Assembly: GCA_000697355.1 (NCBI GenBank)
Contig: JNEN01001244.1
Span: 310,001 to 374,000, forward strand
DNA from: Syncephalastrum monosporum B8922
Lineage: Eukaryota > Mucoromycota > Mucoromycetes > Mucorales > Syncephalastraceae
Direction of reading: 5' to 3'
DNA: 64,000 nucleotides
The translations under genes were made by a program, and so were the position numbers. Shown in pieces: positions 6,291 to 52,443 of this stretch (the stretch's first letter is position 1; each line of letters starts with the position of its first letter). The notes under the pieces were generated by a model, which made no database searches, had not been told where the DNA came from, and saw only the letters and a list, made by a program, of their open reading frames with translations.

Positions 6291-6572
6291 TCAGTTCTGT
6301 TGCCTTCCATTGAGCCATGCGCCAATACTTTGCTTGCTCGGGCGTCTGCCTAGCTGGGTCGGGCAATCTTGATCTTCCTTGACAATAAAAAAGGTCGCAG
6401 GGTCGTTGACGATGACCACACGCGAAAATGTGACACGGCCCATTGAAGATGCTGACTTTGAGCTCCGAAGACGGGAGCAACATGATGTGCTCAAGTCAGA
6501 GTCATTACGCGACGGGTACGTTGGACGAGGAGGGAGAAAAAAGGGCACCATTGTGTTGTGGAAAAACAGCAT
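6291..6572 (-). CDS. Possible small hypothetical protein (93 aa)
   Basis: An open frame of 94 codons runs from an ATG at 6572 to a TGA at 6291. Upstream on the minus strand is a pyrimidine-rich tract (about 6573-6620) with a TATATAATG-like element further up near 6630, the normal promoter layout here. The protein is Ser/Arg-rich and contains MGRVTFSRVVIVNDPATFFI; the RVTF core resembles a PP1-docking RVxF motif (inference only). I do not recognise a family. An overlapping plus-strand frame (6379-6612) is an alternative reading, and the first ATG may not be the true start because a CTCTCCAG acceptor-like site sits just before it. Treat as tentative. Confidence 0.3.
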   Translation of the reverse strand: MLFFHNTMVPFFLPPRPTYPSRNDSDLSTSCCSRLRSSKSASSMGRVTFSRVVIVNDPATFFIVKEDQDCPTQLGRRPSKQSIGAWLNGRQQN

Positions 6573-7437
6573 TCGGACAACTGGAGAGCAAAGTAAAAAA
6601 GAAGAAAGGTAAGAGAAAAGCACGACATTATATAGGTATGATAAAGTGAGGCTATGATATGCACCATACGCACACGCGCGCGCGTGCACCTTGCTCCTGC
6701 ATAATTTACGCATCACAAGCGCCGCGAATCCGAAAGAAAGATTCAGCACCGAAATATAACGCATACCATGTGCGGCTGACTCAATACGGGTCAGCAATCT
6801 GCATGTCTTGATACATAAAGCTGCGATTGAAGCCAGCCAAAGAAGCGACCGTGCTTGTTAATATCTACTCCTGAAGGAGTTTGACAAAACTCTAATCCGT
6901 CATGCCGATTAGTTCATTTATTCTGGGGTGGGCCATCCAGTTGCCAATGTAACTATGGAAACCCGGGAAACGTCCATACCGCCCCACATCCGTATGTGCA
7001 CCGCCATTGAAATTGCTTTTTGCATGTCAAAGACACGCACTACAGCAATTATTTCTCCATCTCTATCGTGCAAGCCGCTCAAGATCTCCTGTCACCTTTT
7101 AATTACAGATTTAGCTTTCGCTCCATCTTCTTCCTTCCTTTCTTTTCTTTTCTCTTTGCCCTTATCTTATCTTTTTTTTTTTTACTTGTCTACTCTTATG
7201 CCCATGTGCGCCTCTAATTAGAAAAAAAGGGAGCATGTCCCACCGACGCATGATTATGCCGTTACACCCGCCTTCATTACCAGAACGCTTCAGTAGCATG
7301 TACGTGTACCTGATTCCGGCTGAAACGAACAAGACGAATGGAGTTTGAAAATTCAATTAGAGACGTTCTTTTAACAGTGGAGAAATGCTATGAACTTACT
7401 AAGGAAACCTCGAAGCATTTTTGTTATGCTGATATTT
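6573..7437. other. Region 3' of the Fanzor gene; candidate site for its guide RNA
   Basis: An 865 bp non-coding stretch downstream of the Fanzor stop. It contains an alternating purine-pyrimidine run (CACACGCGCGCGCGTGCACC) near 6670-6690 and a T/C-rich tract at 7135-7195. No protein-like frame is visible. TnpB-family nucleases usually draw their guide RNA from DNA near the end of their own element, so this flank is a reasonable place to look. I could not identify a terminal inverted repeat or target duplication by eye. Confidence 0.3.
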
Positions 7438-10400
7438 TCATTGTTGTTGAAGTGGCGGTGTAGTTGGCCGTGCTCGTGGTCGTGGAGGTGGTCTGGTCAA
7501 AATCGGAGGTCGACCGCGACCCAAGGCCTCGTTGAACGCGATGCGCCGAATGTTTCGACTGGCGTTGATATCGCGCTGCCACAATGTTCCACACAGTTGA
7601 CAAGCGAGAACACTGTTTAGCGCATAATCAAAGCCTTGGGGTTGAACTTTGGGCATCGGTCGGCTGTTGCACCGCGAACAGACTTGTGATGTGTAGTACT
7701 CGTCGACGAGAACAACGACCAGCAGACCACACCGCTCTGCTTCTTTCAGCTTCTGGAAAAGGCGACGGGACAAGCCAGAATACTGCACGCCAGCCATGCT
7801 CGTCGCAAAGGTGGCACTTCCCAGAGCCACAAGCGGGATTCGTCCGGGAGCAGGTGGGCTGAAGGGTTTTTGGCGCCATTTCGAGACTTTCTTTTTCTTG
7901 GCAGGCCTATGTAAAAAATGTTCAGAGGGAATACTCGCTGACTTATAGAAATATTATACCTGAGAAATGTTGCGGCAGAGGAGGTACTTGCATTATTGCT
8001 GTATAAAGTTGTAAAAGCTGCATCCTCATAGTCAAGACGTAAGAGAATACAATACGTACCTTTCCTTGAGATCATCCTGCTCCTGCTCCTGCTCCTGTTG
8101 CTGCTCCTGTTGCTGCTCCTGCTCCTGCTCCTGTTGCTGCTCCTGCTGCTGCCCTCGTCTGCGCCGTCTTGGTGGTCGGTCCCTGTGTTCGGTATTTCCC
8201 CGGCTTCGATATTTCTTGCCGCCGTTCATGAAAATCTTGATCATCTCAGCGTCTGCTCGCTGCCTGCCTTTGTAATTCCAAAACCGGAGCTGCGGCATGA
8301 ACTGGCCATAGAAGGCATGTAGACGAGCAAAATGGCCGAGTCTGCTCCGAAGTCCGTTCACAAGAAGATCAAGGTGACTTGTCTTGAGCGTCTGCAGCTG
8401 CTGTTCAATCTCGCCAATCTGTTGGTCGTTCTTCTCTTGCAGTATACGTGCAGTGGTCTTCTTGAATCCAGCAAATGAGTAATACTCTGCGCTGCTCATC
8501 TTCCGGATCTCGTGTCTCTCCTCACCGTGGCCGTTGCTTGCTACGAATATCTCCTTGAGTCCTGGATCAGCACCCCAAAGGTCAAAGACCTGCTGCAGTT
8601 CGGCCTCATCAAAGTCCTTTGCTTCCAAGTCAGGCAGCTCTTGCTGAGCGCGTCTTCTTGCCATGATAAAGTCGATATCATAGCCGTCTGTCCTGATTGC
8701 CATGGTGAATAGGTGGCGGGGCTGCGCTGTAGTTTCCCAACTAGCGATGATGTCGTCCACCTTGATGCTTGAAAAGTCGAATACGGCATTGAACAAGCGT
8801 AGATACTCTGCACGAGAACGAGGACTCGTTGGAGCGATGCCTGCTTGTCTGTGTAGCATTTCGCGAAGACCACTACGATTGATCAAAGCAGATAGATCTT
8901 GGCCGTCCAAGGACGCGTAGCGCTTCTGGAATGACATTTGTGGCATCAACGAAAATAAACGCCATGTGCTTGCTATCAAGTGCATTTCGGGCAAGAAGCA
9001 ATCTTCGCGCGGGACAGCGGATTCACCAGTTTGACGGATATCATCCAAGAAAGTTCTTGAGTTCACGATAGATCGCCGGGCAGCGGCAATGGTTTCAGTC
9101 ACGGCGAGGAGGGAGGCGTCTCCCAGACGGTGAGCCATGATGGTACCTTGGTTCTCGGCATTGACGGCGTCCCGGATGCGCCTGCTTAGCTGATTACGGT
9201 ATCGTCTGCTGAAGCTGGCATACTCTGGCAGGTCGAGATCCCTGAGGGCCGCACGCGCCCACGCTGTCGTCGCTTCAACTTGCGGCTCTTCAGCTCTGGC
9301 CATCGCGGCCTCATTAGCATCCTCGATTTGGCGCAGACAACGGAACATGAAACGCATGTACAGCTCTGGGTGAGATGATAGTCTTTCGAGGGTGATGGGA
9401 CGGGCGTTTTGACCACCCAAGAGCTCCACTGCACGGTCGACAAGGTCGTTGACAATGCCCTGCAAGGCTTCTGTTTGCTCCACAGCATCTGGCCAATTCG
9501 GGGCAGCTTCCCCGTCTGCGAAGCGCGTATATGCGAATTTGGCCAGGCTCTTGGCTGCTTGCGGATCGGGGTGCTCGTCGCTCTCCAGAAGACTGTACTG
9601 GAAGTACTTGAGGGCACGGGACTGGAAGCGCTCCGTCAACGAGTTGACAAATGAAGTCCTCATCTCTCGAGCCAAAGAGGACCTCGAGTGCGAGTAGGGT
9701 AGCCGGCGCCGTTCCTGTGCCACCAGGCAATGCGCGTCATTGTTGATTTCTTGGCGGTAGGCAGCAAAGACGTCTTGTAGCTCCTGGGCGGGAATCCTTT
9801 CGTTCTGGGTTGTGACAAAGGGCGACCCATTCGCCAGCTGTATGCAGGCAAAAAAGAAGGGCTGGGAGAATACCGCTGCAGGTGGCGGATCTTGCTCGCG
9901 AGTGGAGAGACTGTGCAGCAGGTAAAAATGTGCAAACGCGTATGCTTTGCCGGCAAGTTCCGTGATATACTCTGACAGCAGATTGGCCTCTTGCATAAAG
10001 CGCTCACGCGGAGCATTCTCGAGGCGCAGGACACTTGCAAGTCCGCTCTTGCGGGTGAAGTTTGTGTAGTCCGGGCCGAGAAGTCTCTTCATGCGCTCAT
10101 CAGTGGACTCGACGTGGAAGAGGCACAGTGAGCTGGAGGCATTGCTGTGATGTCGTTCTGGGTCGTAGGCGCCGGCGTTCACGCAGCGGGAGCAAGCCGG
10201 TGTTTTGGGGTTCTTGATCTTGCGCTCCCGCTCGACTTTGCCTTTGGTACGGCCCCGTTTTGCAGCCTCACGCGCTGATTCCGAGACGCTGGAGCTCGCT
10301 TTGCTAGACATGCTCTCTCGGCGACTGGACGCCGTCCCATACCTTTTGTTGTATGGGCACTTTTTCGTGCGCGCGTCCTTATGGCCAGCCTGCCCACAGC

Positions 10401-10926
10401 GCTTGCATATCGGAACCTCAGTTGCTGGAGCTTGAGGATTTTGTGGATCTTGAGGGGCCGCTGGCTCGGGTGCTCCTACTGGAAACCCGTAGTGGAACCG
10501 GCAGAGCTTCGAGGTTGCGTCACGGTGCCCGGCTAGGTTGCAGTGCAGACAGACACACAGGGCTTGCATGGCAGCTTCCTCTTCCTCCATGCGTCTCTTC
10601 TTCTCCGCCTTCTTGCGGATGATGACCTCCAAAGGCGTTGCTTGTGCAAAGCGAAGCACAAAGGGCTCGGCGCTCCCGTGGAAGTCAAGCTGGGCTCGCT
10701 TCTGGGCTCTCCCGCTACCGCAATATTTGAGTATGAATAACAGTGAAACTGGTGTCATCACCGACATTACTATATACCTTTCATCAAGAGGGTCTTCAAC
10801 GTCGCTGCCCTCGTACTGGTCCTCGCCAGTGGTTCGAGCTCTTTTCTTGCTATTGTTTGAAACAAGCCATAGCACAGATAAACCTCTTGATATGGATACC
10901 AGTGTATCATTCATACCCTTTATCAA
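7438..10926 (-). CDS. Fanzor1-type RNA-guided nuclease (eukaryotic TnpB homolog)
   Basis: Exons 10926-8060, 7986-7960 and 7906-7438 join in one frame of 1,120 residues; a further 63 bp intron at 10777-10715 may be removed without changing frame. The N-terminal extension has two CX2CX4HX7C zinc knuckles (residues ~126-142 and ~174-190) and basic clusters. After a helical middle, RHLFTMAIRTDGYDIDF leads into the RuvC fold. RuvC-I is WGADPGLKEIFVAS (Asp codon 8568-8566), followed by EIRKMSSAEYYSFAG. RuvC-II is VLVDEYYTSQVCSRC (Glu codon 7701-7699). A CX2C...CX2C zinc ribbon follows, and RuvC-III is WQRDINASRNI (Asp codon 7572-7570). The Glu just before the zinc ribbon matches the rearranged active site reported for Fanzors. 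A PAKKKKVSK nuclear-localisation-like motif lies in exon 3. Fanzors cut DNA directed by an omega RNA. All catalytic residues look intact, so the copy may be active. Confidence 0.88.
8066..8160 (-). repeat. Gln/Glu-coding CTGCTC hexanucleotide repeat inside the Fanzor gene
   Basis: On the plus strand this stretch is built from CTCCTG, CTGTTG and CTGCTG units. On the coding strand it gives an uninterrupted Gln/Glu tract of about 28 residues, directly after an RRRRR cluster and before the first 3' splice junction. It lies between RuvC-I and RuvC-II, outside any catalytic motif. The pattern suggests slippage-driven expansion, so length may vary between strains. Confidence 0.85.
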
Positions 10927-11096
10927 CCATCAGAAGAAGTATAAACAGCAGTTGCGCGGAAAATTGGGTTGGAAAGAAGAAGAGTATATAGAAAGCTACA
11001 AGAAAACAATAGGAAGAAGGGAGAAGTGAGGAGGAAGAACGAAGGACGAAGAAGAAGTAGATGATGAGGGAATCGTTCCATTTTATATATCAATAT
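10927..11096 (-). promoter_or_regulatory. Fanzor promoter: TATA box and CT-rich leader
   Basis: Read on the minus strand, an ATATATAAAATGG element (plus positions about 11080-11092) is followed by roughly 60 bp of almost pure pyrimidine (CTTCTTCTTCGTCC-like) and then a leader of about 100 bp to the ATG at 10926. This is the same layout as the host housekeeping genes in the window, so the nuclease gene seems able to be transcribed. Confidence 0.55.
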
Positions 11097-11272
11097 CATG
11101 CATCAGTGTCCACATTGTTTGAAATCAGTGATTAAGAGGCTTGCTATGTCTATTTCATGCATCACTTTCCACCTGGTTTAAAAACAGTGAGTAAGAGGTC
11201 TGCTATGTCATTCCATGAATCAGTGTTCACAATGTTTGAAATCAGTGATGCTTGATATGTCACTTTCACGTA
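11097..11272. repeat. Three tandem ~58 bp repeats upstream of the Fanzor promoter
   Basis: Three imperfect direct copies start at 11097, 11156 and 11214 with the motif CATGCATCAGTGTCCAC, then a TTTGAAATCAGTGA core and a GCTATGTC end. The period is 58-59 bp and the third copy is the most worn at its end. There is no gap between copies, so this is a tandem array and not a CRISPR-like array. It ends directly at the TATA box region of the Fanzor gene, which suggests either an upstream regulatory array or a subterminal repeat of the mobile element. Confidence 0.8.
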
Positions 11273-12903
11273 ACCTTTTCATGTCTCAACTTCATGTGCA
11301 GTGCCCGCTAAAATATTAGCCCAGGAAAAAAAGGGCCAGCAAAGCTGCAAACGGGAGATTGGGGCCAATTTTCGGTTCACTTATTTCTCCCTCGAGCTAG
11401 CCGTCAGAAAGAGTTACTTTGCTTCAGATGCATATGGACAGGGATTTTTCAGCCAAGGAATATGACGATAGGCGCAAGGAAGAAGATCTGAGAAAATCAG
11501 CCAGGGACTATCAGGAATGGGATGCTGACGTCTATACGTAGGTCCAATGTGATCAAGACAGGATGGATAAACTGTGGACAACAGGACCCAAATGAGAGGG
11601 TGAGCAGAAGTACAAGATTGACGGATCTAATACAAGACAGAAGGGACTACCTATATGGATCAGAAACCTATTCTGCTTAGTGATTGGGCATCTGGCGTCT
11701 TCATACCTGCGGGGCAGAGGCAGGGCAGAGGCTTGCCAGAAATCTAGTGGGCTTTAACTTATGATCGACTAGATTGACGAGAATGGACAGAGGATTTGAG
11801 GATGGATTATTGGATATCGTTTATTACTTGATATGTTGGATCTTGCACATGTGTAGATACTGCTCATGACAACGATATCTTTGAATTAAATATACAAGAG
11901 TCATTTTGTGAAATTCTTTTGATTGAATTTGCATCTCTTACATGAGCTTCTCTCTAGTAAAAGATATAGCACATATCATAGAAGGATTCATGATCATAAA
12001 GAAAATATATATCAAATCTATGCTGTACTTGATGATGGTGATACTGCTTTGAGGGAGCCACAAAAATTATATGAATTCTTCAGAATAAGAAATATAATCA
12101 TAGTAAACAAGAATAAAAGATTAAACAGTTCTACTTTAAATGGGGTTACAGCTTTCACAACTGCTCTTAAAATTGAAGAGACCATAAGCGCATTATTCTC
12201 TCTATCTCTGTTTTTTTTTGTTGGTCCTAACGAGTGACAAAAAGGTCGATTGGCGTGTGCCGAATCCGTTAGTTCGAGGAAAATAGAAAAAGCTTCAGCT
12301 GCACGGGCGCCTGGCCATGAATAACGCAAGTAGCAGATCCCATAAGCGCCGTCGGGACATGGCCGTGTGTGCATAATCATCACGGACCTGAACTTAATAA
12401 TACCGCTCAAAGTCTGCACAGGATGTTTTGCATGCGATTGAATTCTATGTAAACATCATCAGTCGACTGTCGCTACGAGGTGGAATATCCGACAGATGAT
12501 ACTTGAATGATGGTTTACTCGTTTTTACGGTGACAACGTGCAACCGGCTTATTAATTCTTTGACAGGGACCTAGGGGGGGTTCAATTGTCTGAGTAAAGA
12601 CGGCTTCTATTTATTGTTCATGCCTCCATTACTCGCAAAAATATTACACCGAGGATCCGGACGGTGAAAGGGAAAGTCCTCGTCTCCAGCATCGGGGTTT
12701 AATGGCGAGGATAATATCGACCGTCGGTAAATCGGTTCAGGCGCGCACGTCTGACATGGCTGCGCTTGGCCCCCTCCGCCCTCCCCCTTTTCTCAAGGCC
12801 AACGGGCAGCCATCGTTTCTTGGATTTCCCTCCTTCTCTTCTTTTTTCTTCGTCGCTTCCAGCTCAATCCTTCTCTTTTCATTCGTTCCCTTCTATCTCA
12901 GAA
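11273..12903. other. Probable decayed mobile-element or pseudogene block
   Basis: About 1.6 kb with no intact gene. At 11430-11680 several short plus-strand frames look protein-like but are broken by stops and frame changes, for example DFSAKEYDDRRKEEDLRKSA followed in another frame by DRMDKLWTTGP. From about 11820 to 12230 the base composition becomes markedly AT-rich and an open frame of 104 codons (11923-12237) appears with no recognisable family. The right end (12640-12903) contains the promoter and pyrimidine-rich leader of the SH3 gene. The block adjoins the Fanzor and may be part of the same insertion. Confidence 0.35.
11923..12237 (+). pseudogene. AT-rich open frame of unknown origin
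   Basis: A 104-codon frame lies inside the AT-rich part of the accessory block. The translated product contains QIYAVLDDGDTALREPQKLY and later NGVTAFTTALKIEET, which look like genuine protein, but the C-terminal end runs into a low-complexity FSLSLFFFVG stretch. Codon use is much more AT-biased than in the neighbouring genes, suggesting foreign or long-decayed DNA. No homologous family is recognised; it may be an exon or a relic of a mobile element. Confidence 0.25.
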
Positions 12904-50269: not shown

Positions 50270-52443
50270 TTATGCATCGCGGCAGCGCGCAGGCACATCA
50301 AAGCTCTCTGTGCGTCGCTCGAGCCAGCCTTCCTTGATGAGTTCAGCGCCGACGCCAAGACCACGACGGGCAAACGCAGCATAAATAAGACAATAGTTCT
50401 CACCGTGGGTGAGCTGAGACTCGGCTGAAAGGATTGCATCACGCGCATCGACAAAAGTGGGGTTACAGGGCTGCTGCTTCATGCCATCCATGACGAGCTG
50501 CAAAGCCAAAGTGTTGCCATGGTTTAGGATATGGTCACGTGCTTGGTGGATATCAGCGGGCGGGAACCAGATCGGCGTGTAACCATGCGCATCGACCAGA
50601 TCCCAGTACACTTCATAGAGCATTTCAGCCCAGACCTCACCCTTGGCATGCACGCCCCAGTAGTTGAAGCGGTCCATGATGCGATACGTGCTCGGGTTAG
50701 TCTCCATGCTCGTCGAGTACTTGTAGTTGCGGATGCCCGGACCGCCGTTGGCCCAGCCGCCCATGCCAAAATCGGACTCGCGTGTATCATTGATAGACAT
50801 GCGGATGATGGTGGCGACAAAGTCGCCCCAGCCCTCGCCCATACCACCTGCCTCGCCCCAGCCAAGGCAGTTGCTGTTGTGTGGGCCTTGTGTCAACCGG
50901 TTCGAGACACCGTGAGTGTACTCGTGGATGATGATGCCGCTCTCAAAGTCGCCATCGCGCATCGGGTGGGTCTGGTCCCAGACGTACATGCGCATCTTGC
51001 CGTGGCGTCCGTCCGGCGGGGTAGCAAAGTTGGCATTGTTGCGTCCTGAACCATCCTGGGCATTGGCAATCACGGCGTCGTTCTCGCCGTCGTCGTTCTC
51101 GCGTCCGCGGCCCAGATTGCTCTCCTGGAAATTACCTAATCACCGGCCAATGGATGCTTAGTGATTTTGGAAAATAATTTGAGCAACCATTCCTCTTCCT
51201 ACCTGACTTTTCGTCAAAGCCGTAGCGATAAAACAAATCGTGAGCCGTGTTGCACCAGTAAAAGAGGTTGGTGACCGCCGCATCCTCGTACTGCTTGGGT
51301 TCGTCCACGTCGAACTTGGCACGGTAGTCAAAGATGATATGGCCTTCGTCGTCCGACTTGGCGGCTGGGCGGTAGTTCTCTTCCCAATTGTAGCCACCAT
51401 CGGGGTTGGTATGTGCATAGACATTGTTACCGATCGTTACGTTATAGAGGTAGCCACCATCCTGTGTCTGCCAGCCGATAGGGCTTGCGACTAAGTCGTG
51501 TGGGTTCCTGAGCAGGGTTTGCTCAGCTTCAGAGGGGTCGTTGGCCCCAAACGGGATCACGTTGTAGTACACTGCATCGGACACCCAATCCACTAGACCC
51601 ACGAGACGACCATCATGCGCATTAACATGGGCGTTGTACCAATGATCCACCAGTTCGATTTCGATATCCCAGACCTGGACGAGCTCTCCTGTCTCGAGCT
51701 GCGAATACGCCCTGCGCACACGCACATCCGACTGAGCACCAGGAAGGTCGAAAAGCATGAAAGCCGAGTCCTCCTCTTTGGGTCGAAGTGCAAAGGGTGT
51801 GTGATGCACCGTGTGACCCACATGGCTTAAAAGAGCCAGAATTGCGCTTTCAGGCGGGATCACCGGCTCGGCTGCTTGCGTGTACCGGTAGCCGATCGCG
51901 TCATGATCGGAGAATACCAGTTGCTACGATAAGCACAGAGGGACTATTGAGCTTTCATGCATAACAAACAAGCCAAACAAATCGATGACGTACTTTCCAC
52001 CATGATGAGGAGCTCTCTTTTTTGCTCTGCACAGGCTGGGCAAATGAATTGCCAGCAGATAAGACTTGACCATGCCGATCCACATTGATATTCATGTCTC
52101 CGTTGACGACCTCGATGCCGTCCACCACTTGTCGCAGATAGACATGCGTCACCCCGCTGAGCTGGCTTGTGTGTGATGACTGCACGATAAACTCGCTGTG
52201 GGGCGCCAGGTGCGACGCAAACAAGGTCGCTACCGTTTCAGGCGATGTCGACTCTCCTCCCGCACTCCACATCAGGTCGTTGCCCTCACCGAACATCGTC
52301 GTGTACGTCTTGTGGGGCAAATGGGGCCCAAAATTGCCTGTGGCCCGAGACTCGGGCTGAGCGTGCAAATGCTTTGGCAAAGCGGCTACGCTCGTGATAG
52401 AAGCAGCAGCGAGCGCCACTGCGGTAGTGATCAAATTGACCAT
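50270..52443 (-). CDS. Secreted fungalysin metalloprotease (M36)
   Basis: Three or four exons from the ATG at 52443. A signal peptide (LITTAVALAAASITSVAALP) is followed by the FTP propeptide, with FIVQSSHTSQLSGVTHVYLR and GDMNINVDRHGQVLSAGNSF. The mature enzyme has VTNLFYWCNTAHDLFYRYGF and the zinc site IIIHEYTHGVSNRL, where the two His ligands and catalytic Glu form HEYTH, and the GWGEAGGMGEGWGDF segment carries the third ligand. The end has CNPTFVDARDAILSAES and the C-terminal GVGAELIKEGW. The M36 family digests elastin, keratin and other extracellular proteins as a nutrition enzyme. The gene is complete and the active-site residues are all present. It converges with SCAI with about 160 bp between stops. 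Confidence 0.92.

Follow-up and report, generated by a model that had tools for sequence, protein, structure and literature searches.

The Fanzor locus and its gene

A window of 64,000 nucleotides from the mucoralean fungus Syncephalastrum monosporum B8922 (assembly GCA_000697355.1, contig JNEN01001244.1, positions 310,001 to 374,000 of the forward strand; coordinates below are those of the window) carries on its minus strand, at 10930-7438, a spliced gene predicted to encode a Fanzor1-type nuclease. Fanzors, which occur in eukaryotes, are related to the Cas12 nucleases of CRISPR systems. The gene lies in one copy of a repeated element, here called the Fanzor element, whose features are as follows; L numbers denote other loci of the same genome.

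7318-12182, minus strand: window copy of the Fanzor element, ~4.87 kb; 3' end complete, ~56-60 bp absent from the 5' side, among them the left-end inverted repeat
10931-12182, minus strand: 5' untranslated and promoter region, with a TATA-like TATATAAAAT at 11089 and three 59-bp tandem units
10917-10930, minus strand: coding exon 1, 14 nt, ATG at 10930; GT/AG kept in L029, L030b, L031, L032 and L034
10778-10849, minus strand: coding exon 2; GT/AG junctions kept in the copies covering them
8060-10714, minus strand: coding exon 3; zinc-knuckle-like N-terminal modules, putative REC/WED-equivalent region, RuvC-I Asp745 and a Q/E-rich linker
7960-7986, minus strand: coding exon 4, 27 nt; GT/AG kept in L029, L030a, L032, L033 and L035
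7438-7906, minus strand: coding exon 5; KKKKV basic stretch, Gly952, Glu992, four-cysteine (C4) zinc ribbon, RuvC-III Asp1035 and stop codon
7318-7437, minus strand: 3' untranslated stretch, conserved as far as the right end and terminating in CTTGTTCGTTTCAGCC; candidate scaffold of an omega-RNA, with inverted repeat
7320-7399, minus strand: intron-like 80 nt in the 3' untranslated stretch (GTAAGT, CTAAT, and TTTCAG ending two bases short of the tip); speculative
7303-7317, minus strand: flank past the right end, candidate guide by analogy with the Fanzor1 protein SpuFz1 and from the 8-bp duplications of L029 and L054

The five predicted coding exons join in one frame of 1078 amino acids with no stop codon or frameshift, and every intron is of the GT/AG type; an earlier note made from the DNA letters had likewise joined its exons in one frame. 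Eight copies or pieces of the element were aligned over the splice sites; each junction is covered by five of them and is GT/AG in all five. This includes the two 3' junctions of that note (8060/7986 and 7960/7906), which are the same in L029, L030a, L032, L033 and L035. Skipping of the 27-nt exon 4 would keep the frame, giving 1069 amino acids instead of 1078. The single exon of 964 codons described in the note was rejected, as it reads through two predicted internal GT/AG introns (10916-10850 and 10777-10715) that are conserved in five other copies; these introns were overlooked because they are open in frame. Translation likely starts at the ATG at 10930, so that the first coding exon would be only 14 nt long and the true large exon would be 10714-8060. 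The exon structure as a whole is a prediction. From base composition, the chance of an open exon of 885 codons is ~1e-15.

Ahead of the nuclease core the protein has three CxxC modules (CLHC at 10551, CKRC at 10407 and CSRC at 10194), on which Pfam places a sub-threshold zf-CCHC_6 match (E=0.018); the large open frame gave no Pfam match at E up to 1. The TATA-like TATATAAAAT lies 159 nt upstream of the ATG; the idea in the earlier note that the gene may be expressed gained no direct support. The three 59-bp units upstream of the gene are arranged head-to-tail at 11086-11261 and belong to the element.

Family assignment and the RuvC core

The last exon matches the Pfam TNB (Cas12f1-like) family at E=5.4e-13, with 49.3 bits against a cut-off of 26.3. 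A RuvC core alignment was assembled from four sequences of the same genome, namely the window gene, a pair of relatives at 48 and 47% identity that make up sub-family B in this set, and a single relative at 40% identity from sub-family C; TNB matched all four. The NCBIfam TnpB models remained below their cut-offs, the best being NF040570 at 34.4 versus 100 bits. When the four-member core profile was searched against PDB, SpuFz1 (8gkh) came at the top of 21 matches with a whole-sequence E-value of 2.7e-6, followed by the TnpB-like protein L79 and, in third place, by Guillardia theta Fanzor1 (GtFz1, 9cer; E=0.0027). The first place of SpuFz1 supports the reading that the window gene encodes a Fanzor1-type RuvC nuclease. 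The profile places D745 and E992 of the window protein onto D383 and E541 of SpuFz1 (residue numbering by a chain offset of 394, counted by hand along the printed chain numbers), which are named as metal ligands in the SpuFz1 report (Saito et al. 2023, PMC10432273).

The three acidic residues of the RuvC site were found at exactly the codons first assigned to them: Asp745 of WGADPG in RuvC-I at 8568-8566, Glu992 of VDEYYTS at 7701-7699, and Asp1035 of QRDINAS in RuvC-III at 7572-7570. The zinc-ribbon motifs CSRC (7680) and CQLC (7602) sit between Glu992 and Asp1035, again as noted before. All four core sequences, which represent three sub-families, carry the three acidic residues and the four cysteines of the ribbon unchanged, and likewise the RuvC-I DPG (D745-P-G). 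Fanzor proteins have been characterised by this DPG and by an alternative glutamate lying six residues before the first CxxC, versus ~50 upstream (Yoon et al. 2023, PMC10711439). Glu992 is six residues ahead of the first zinc-ribbon CxxC (C999), and the position of the lost canonical glutamate is taken by Gly952, the Gly of an ALG motif, with Gly in all four core sequences. The rearranged glutamate suspected from the DNA letters is thus borne out by its spacing, by its alignment to SpuFz1 E541 and by Gly952.

The motif of Bao and Jurka, D-X(125,275)-[TS][TS]-XX-C4-X(5,50)-RD, is present as D745, a gap of 249 to TS995, the C4 ribbon, five residues and RD. This motif and a Fanzor spacing rule (DPG, Glu six residues before the CxxC, and Asp 4-8 after the ribbon) both occur in the spliced protein, and each was found in 0 of 5000 shuffles. 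A short core pattern occurs once in the six-frame translations of the whole window, at the Fanzor gene. The family searches uphold the identification of a Fanzor in the earlier note: TNB scores above its cut-off, SpuFz1 is the best match of the core profile, and the D/E/C4/D residues are invariant.

Public relatives

Searches of the protein database for homologs scored, each time, only the ~8000 candidates sharing most words. Within this scope the core profile found two relatives, both hypothetical proteins, from Chlamydoabsidia padenii (P0001, 190 amino acids) and Hesseltinella vesiculosa (P0002, 497 amino acids); the further homolog searches, with the same number of candidates, gave no match. 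The Chlamydoabsidia protein has DPD at RuvC-I and the Hesseltinella protein has DPG. Judged by eye, both hold the RuvC-I region and end before RuvC-II, and therefore lack the diagnostic zinc ribbon; TNB matched neither at E up to 1. These two models behave as had been foreseen for gene finders, which were expected to miss the family.

The mobile element and its copies

Genome searches covered 27.5 Mb in 198 contigs. The DNA of 6500-12500 has at least 71 matching pieces, counting itself and short Q/E-repeat pieces, and the long matches to the element break off sharply near 7315 and 12182. The copy L029 is complete: it measures 4872 bp, contains the full 1078-amino-acid frame, has GGCTGA/TCAGCC ends and is flanked by an 8/8 duplication, GATGCTTG. 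It is against L029 that the 56-60 bp missing from the left end of the window copy were recognised. The right end, downstream of the gene (...CTCCATTCGTCTTGTTCGTTTCAGCC), has 14 matches at up to 3 mismatches, the window's own copy included, and the left end (GGCTGATTTACCTTTACAAATGGAGTTT) has four; the control pattern gave 0 in both cases. Left and right ends are imperfect inverted repeats of each other. Target duplications were seen at three of the 15 right ends examined, each time with the repeated 8-mer beside a sequence resembling the element's start, and with 8/8 identical bases in L029 and L054 and 6/8 in the old copy L039. In the window copy the first eight nucleotides of the flank, GGAATCAG (7317-7310), would be the target-site duplication; no convincing partner for this 8-mer was found. 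By its ends, copies and duplications, the gene is carried by a multi-copy, non-autonomous DNA transposon; this element is real, well supported and mobile, and as a family it is probably active.

The C-terminal peptide gave 31 matching rows in the genome (own copy counted, some rows sharing a locus), of which 13 have in-frame stops. A 28-bp remnant at L054:1498-1525 (G000:C191:28265-28292) joins four bases from the start of the left end to the final 24 of the right end and lies within a perfect 8-bp duplication, GAGTAATG; it resembles what internal deletion or abortive repair of the element would leave. At L060:1433-1525 (G000:C100) the match is limited to the element's last 93 bases, with a flank of its own, and this locus is a candidate guide-RNA-only remnant. 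The window sequence 12181-12419, which adjoins the truncated left end, recurs once on contig C79 (L047:1642-1895, 88% identical); in the window it starts at the element boundary.

Between the gene and the left end, no further frame above 104 amino acids is contained entirely in the window copy; no domain search was made in this part. For an autonomous partner sharing the ends, the open frames of six loci (L054, L065, L066, L060, L044 and L041) were inspected by eye, with no domain search, and no transposase was recognised among them. Assignment to MuDR (MULE) was rejected, since the duplications are 8 bp rather than 9 bp and the ninth base differs in L029. Neither the MULE locus L073 nor the weaker L074 has an end like that of the Fanzor element within the 2675 and 3153 bases examined. 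The hAT family PF05699 had no match in the genome, but likewise none in 14 control genomes. As separate observations, L073 (G000:C197) has an open frame with a MULE transposase match of 71.8 bits, and the minus strand of L065 holds, near a decayed left end, a 493-amino-acid frame that by eye resembles the reverse transcriptase of a non-LTR (long terminal repeat) retrotransposon.

Sub-families B and C represent at least two further Fanzor1-type groups of this genome, and L068, L071 and L069 retain the catalytic residues. Comparison of L067 with L068, both of sub-family B, showed similarity as far as they were compared, with no element boundary found. By eye, L067 has a frame change in its long exon, and L070 has Tyr in place of one zinc-ribbon Cys. 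A frame at L044:3438-4076, with ITDEHRSSKTCHQC...RDAMAA, looks by eye like a different Fanzor1 lineage (TNB E=0.076; no PDB match at E up to 0.1).

Selection on the coding frame

Ratios of nonsynonymous to synonymous substitution rates (dN/dS) against the window gene are 0.21 for L029 (1072 codons), 0.18 for L030b (504 codons), 0.17 for L031 (425 codons), 0.29 for L033 (442 codons) and 0.15 for L035 (296 codons), with p-values of Fisher tests on these five copies or pieces running from 8e-6 to 3e-17. Their insertions and deletions are multiples of three, except for a 28-nt gap in L030b that lies past its blastn match. Left out of this frame-keeping set were L030a (0.49 overall and 0.10 in the core, with a stretch misaligned at a rearrangement), L032 (0.33, frameshifted) and L034 (0.14, 68 codons only); the 58% figure for L032 in the 5' region was not used, as it spans sequence without a blastn match. 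These values support purifying selection on the Fanzor frame and, together with the full frame, the claim of the earlier note that the gene is intact.

The 3' end and a candidate guide RNA

Between the stop codon and the right end, L029, L030, L032, L033, L038 and L048 are 90-95% identical to the window copy. The older copies L036, L039, L040, L041, L045 and L046 reach 80-89%, and values are low, 58% and 74%, for L054 and L060, which are remnants of the end alone. The 3' untranslated stretch is conserved about as well as the coding tail, and the flank beyond it is unmatched (1-13 of 21-25 bases). SpuFz1 of Spizellomyces punctatus, for which RNA binding and activity were demonstrated, uses an RNA with a 75-nt scaffold and a 14-15-nt guide that arises from the 3' end of its locus, where, as in the window, stop codon, short conserved stretch, inverted repeat and variable flank follow in this order (PMC10432273). 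By its position and conservation, the 3' end of the Fanzor element may likewise give rise to a guide RNA. Rfam had no match in the window.

Interpretation of the locus

The reading we favour, with a probability of roughly 0.85, is that the locus represents one copy of a repeated, non-autonomous DNA transposon (GGCTGA...TCAGCC, 8-bp duplication) whose only recognised gene encodes an intact Fanzor1-type nuclease with the rearranged glutamate, and whose most likely mechanism is RNA-guided copying. The coding frame, the catalytic residues, the core homology to a proven Fanzor1, the ends, the duplications, the copy number and the purifying selection are observed. In the proposed mechanism, the Fanzor protein would bind a short RNA from the conserved 3' end of the element that reads into the flank, and the flank would act as guide. 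The protein would then cut the matching empty site on other chromosomes or donor DNA, and repair would copy the element back, so that copies persist to the benefit of the element. The transposase that moves the ends would work in trans from elsewhere, or may have been lost. Having lost its left end, the window copy can probably make the protein and the RNA but not move by itself.

Several results weigh against this reading. The two stretches of SpuFz1 aligned by the core profile are singly weak, with i-Evalues of 0.013 and 1.7. SpuFz1 was not listed when a two-sequence, near-full-length profile (A3) was searched against PDB, nor was it found in the single-sequence PDB search, which was itself weak (best E=0.042, to TranC and TnpB chains). 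With SpuFz1 missing from both searches, the observed homology to known Fanzors is confined to the RuvC core, and the A3 profile did not extend it to the N-terminal half. The fold of the 3' stretch is not significant (z=-0.53), and no covarying pair was found among 13 copies, for which RNAalifold gave 8 pairs with 0 compensatory changes; on these two results a strongly folded guide RNA was rejected. Duplications were found at just three of the 15 right ends, the other 12 being unconvincing, with the left end of many lying outside the examined sequence. Nor did the analysis bring up a transposase whose ends match.

The loss of the left end would also suit a decaying relic, an old insertion whose frame is intact by chance and which encodes no functional nuclease, as would the decay of other copies, with in-frame stops in 13 of the 31 matching rows and a frameshift in L032. 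A relic is nevertheless unlikely in view of the 1078 codons without stop or frameshift, the kept splice sites and the dN/dS of 0.21 versus L029, a low ratio for which differences dating from before the left-end loss could still account. An intact, selected frame in a copy without its left end is equally what would be expected of a domesticated Fanzor, immobilised by that loss and kept by the fungus; the mobile-looking, intact L029 accounts for the selection without any host use, and domestication is most improbable. It is very improbable that the element uses the protein chiefly to bind RNA or DNA in the nucleus on behalf of its transposase, and not as a guide-programmed nuclease. The very long N-terminal part of the protein, with its CxxC modules, would fit such a role, and the Mucorales Fanzor1 PpFz1 is described as having an extra insertion that binds a host protein (PMC11423790), but catalytic residues that are invariant in four core sequences of three sub-families are hard to explain without cutting.

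Splice-like signals at the element tip

At its 3' extremity the element resembles the end of a spliceosomal intron, with GTAAGT at ~-82, CTAAY at ~-43 and TTTCAG at the tip. A bold and improbable reading is that this is a real intron, whose 3' splice site coincides with the transposon end. Such splicing would fuse upstream element RNA to the flanking guide sequence, or would compete with guide-RNA formation. Among 15 right-end copies, which are related and not independent, the tip TTTCAG is preceded by GTAAG[TC] in 12, by CTAA[CT] in 12 and by both in 10. The arrangement occurred in 88 of 20000 base-composition shuffles of the window stretch, a test made after the pattern had been seen, and lies upstream of 2 of the 243 YYYCAG sites of the window. 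In sub-family C (L069 and L070), similarity stops at ...GTCGGGTTTA; by eye this tip lacks a splice acceptor, which counts against tip splicing being general. Bacterial IStrons are subject to a conflict between splicing and guide RNA, of which tip splicing in a Fanzor element would, if true, be the eukaryotic counterpart. No account of a splice-at-tip arrangement appears among the titles and abstract openings listed for the Fanzor literature on splicing and introns.

Neighbouring genes

Twenty of the 50 stop-to-stop frames of at least 170 amino acids in the window were scanned with Pfam, and 10 of them gave matches that look like ordinary cellular genes: WD40-type (below cut-offs), SH3, TRAPPC13, HAM1-like, UNC45-type, SCAI, aldo-keto reductase, M36 peptidase (two pieces) and TsaD. 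The M36 pieces correspond to a fungalysin-type metallopeptidase gene lying in two open frames at 50273-51923. The fungal accessory island in which the gene was earlier placed is not supported by the frames scanned; the gene sits in a mobile element.

Relation to known Fanzor systems and significance

Fanzor1 genes of Rhizopus, Phycomyces and Mucor were described by Bao and Jurka in 2013 (PMC3627910), including the transposase-less elements ROr-4, PBl-3 and MCi-4 with MuDR-like ends and 9-bp duplications. The window element is like these three in its Fanzor1 gene, its inverted repeats, its lack of a recognised transposase gene and its occurrence in an early-diverging fungus, and is set apart from their descriptions by its 8-bp duplications and by the absence of an end match to the two MULE loci within the sequence examined. 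As transposase-less Fanzor1 elements of these genera were published in 2013, the window gene adds to a known kind a new member of unusual length. With SpuFz1 it shares the alternative glutamate and the RuvC-I DP motif, and it differs from SpuFz1 by a Q/E-rich linker between RuvC-I and RuvC-II. Most Fz1 proteins are given as 600-700 amino acids long (PMC11423790), in contrast to the 1078 of the window protein with its long N-terminal part and zinc-knuckle-like modules. PpFz1 of Parasitella parasitica is also a Mucorales Fanzor1 with extra sequence inside RuvC; its FRI insertion is a folded cyclophilin-binding domain (PMC11423790), whereas that of the window protein is a Q/E repeat. The 21 matches of the core profile in PDB include no chain under the name of Parasitella. 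Prokaryotic TnpB shares RuvC with a C4 zinc ribbon, and the window gene differs from it by its NF040570 score below the 100-bit cut-off, by the alternative glutamate position and by spliceosomal introns. Judged from the predicted protein, the window gene is ordinary in kind and unusual in build, in its length, its three CxxC modules and the Q/E linker inside RuvC.

With this gene, Fanzor1 gains a long lineage that has zinc-knuckle-like modules at the N terminus and a Q/E linker in RuvC. The two public gene models that end before RuvC-II suggest that counts of Fanzor genes in Mucorales may be too low. Should the cell make use of the splice signals at the tip, a eukaryotic mobile element would have its guide formation in competition with the processing of its RNA. 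S. monosporum, whose genome combines a complete copy, the intact gene of the window, aged and damaged copies, remnants of the ends alone and two or more additional sub-families, would offer a natural system for the role of Fanzor in its transposon.

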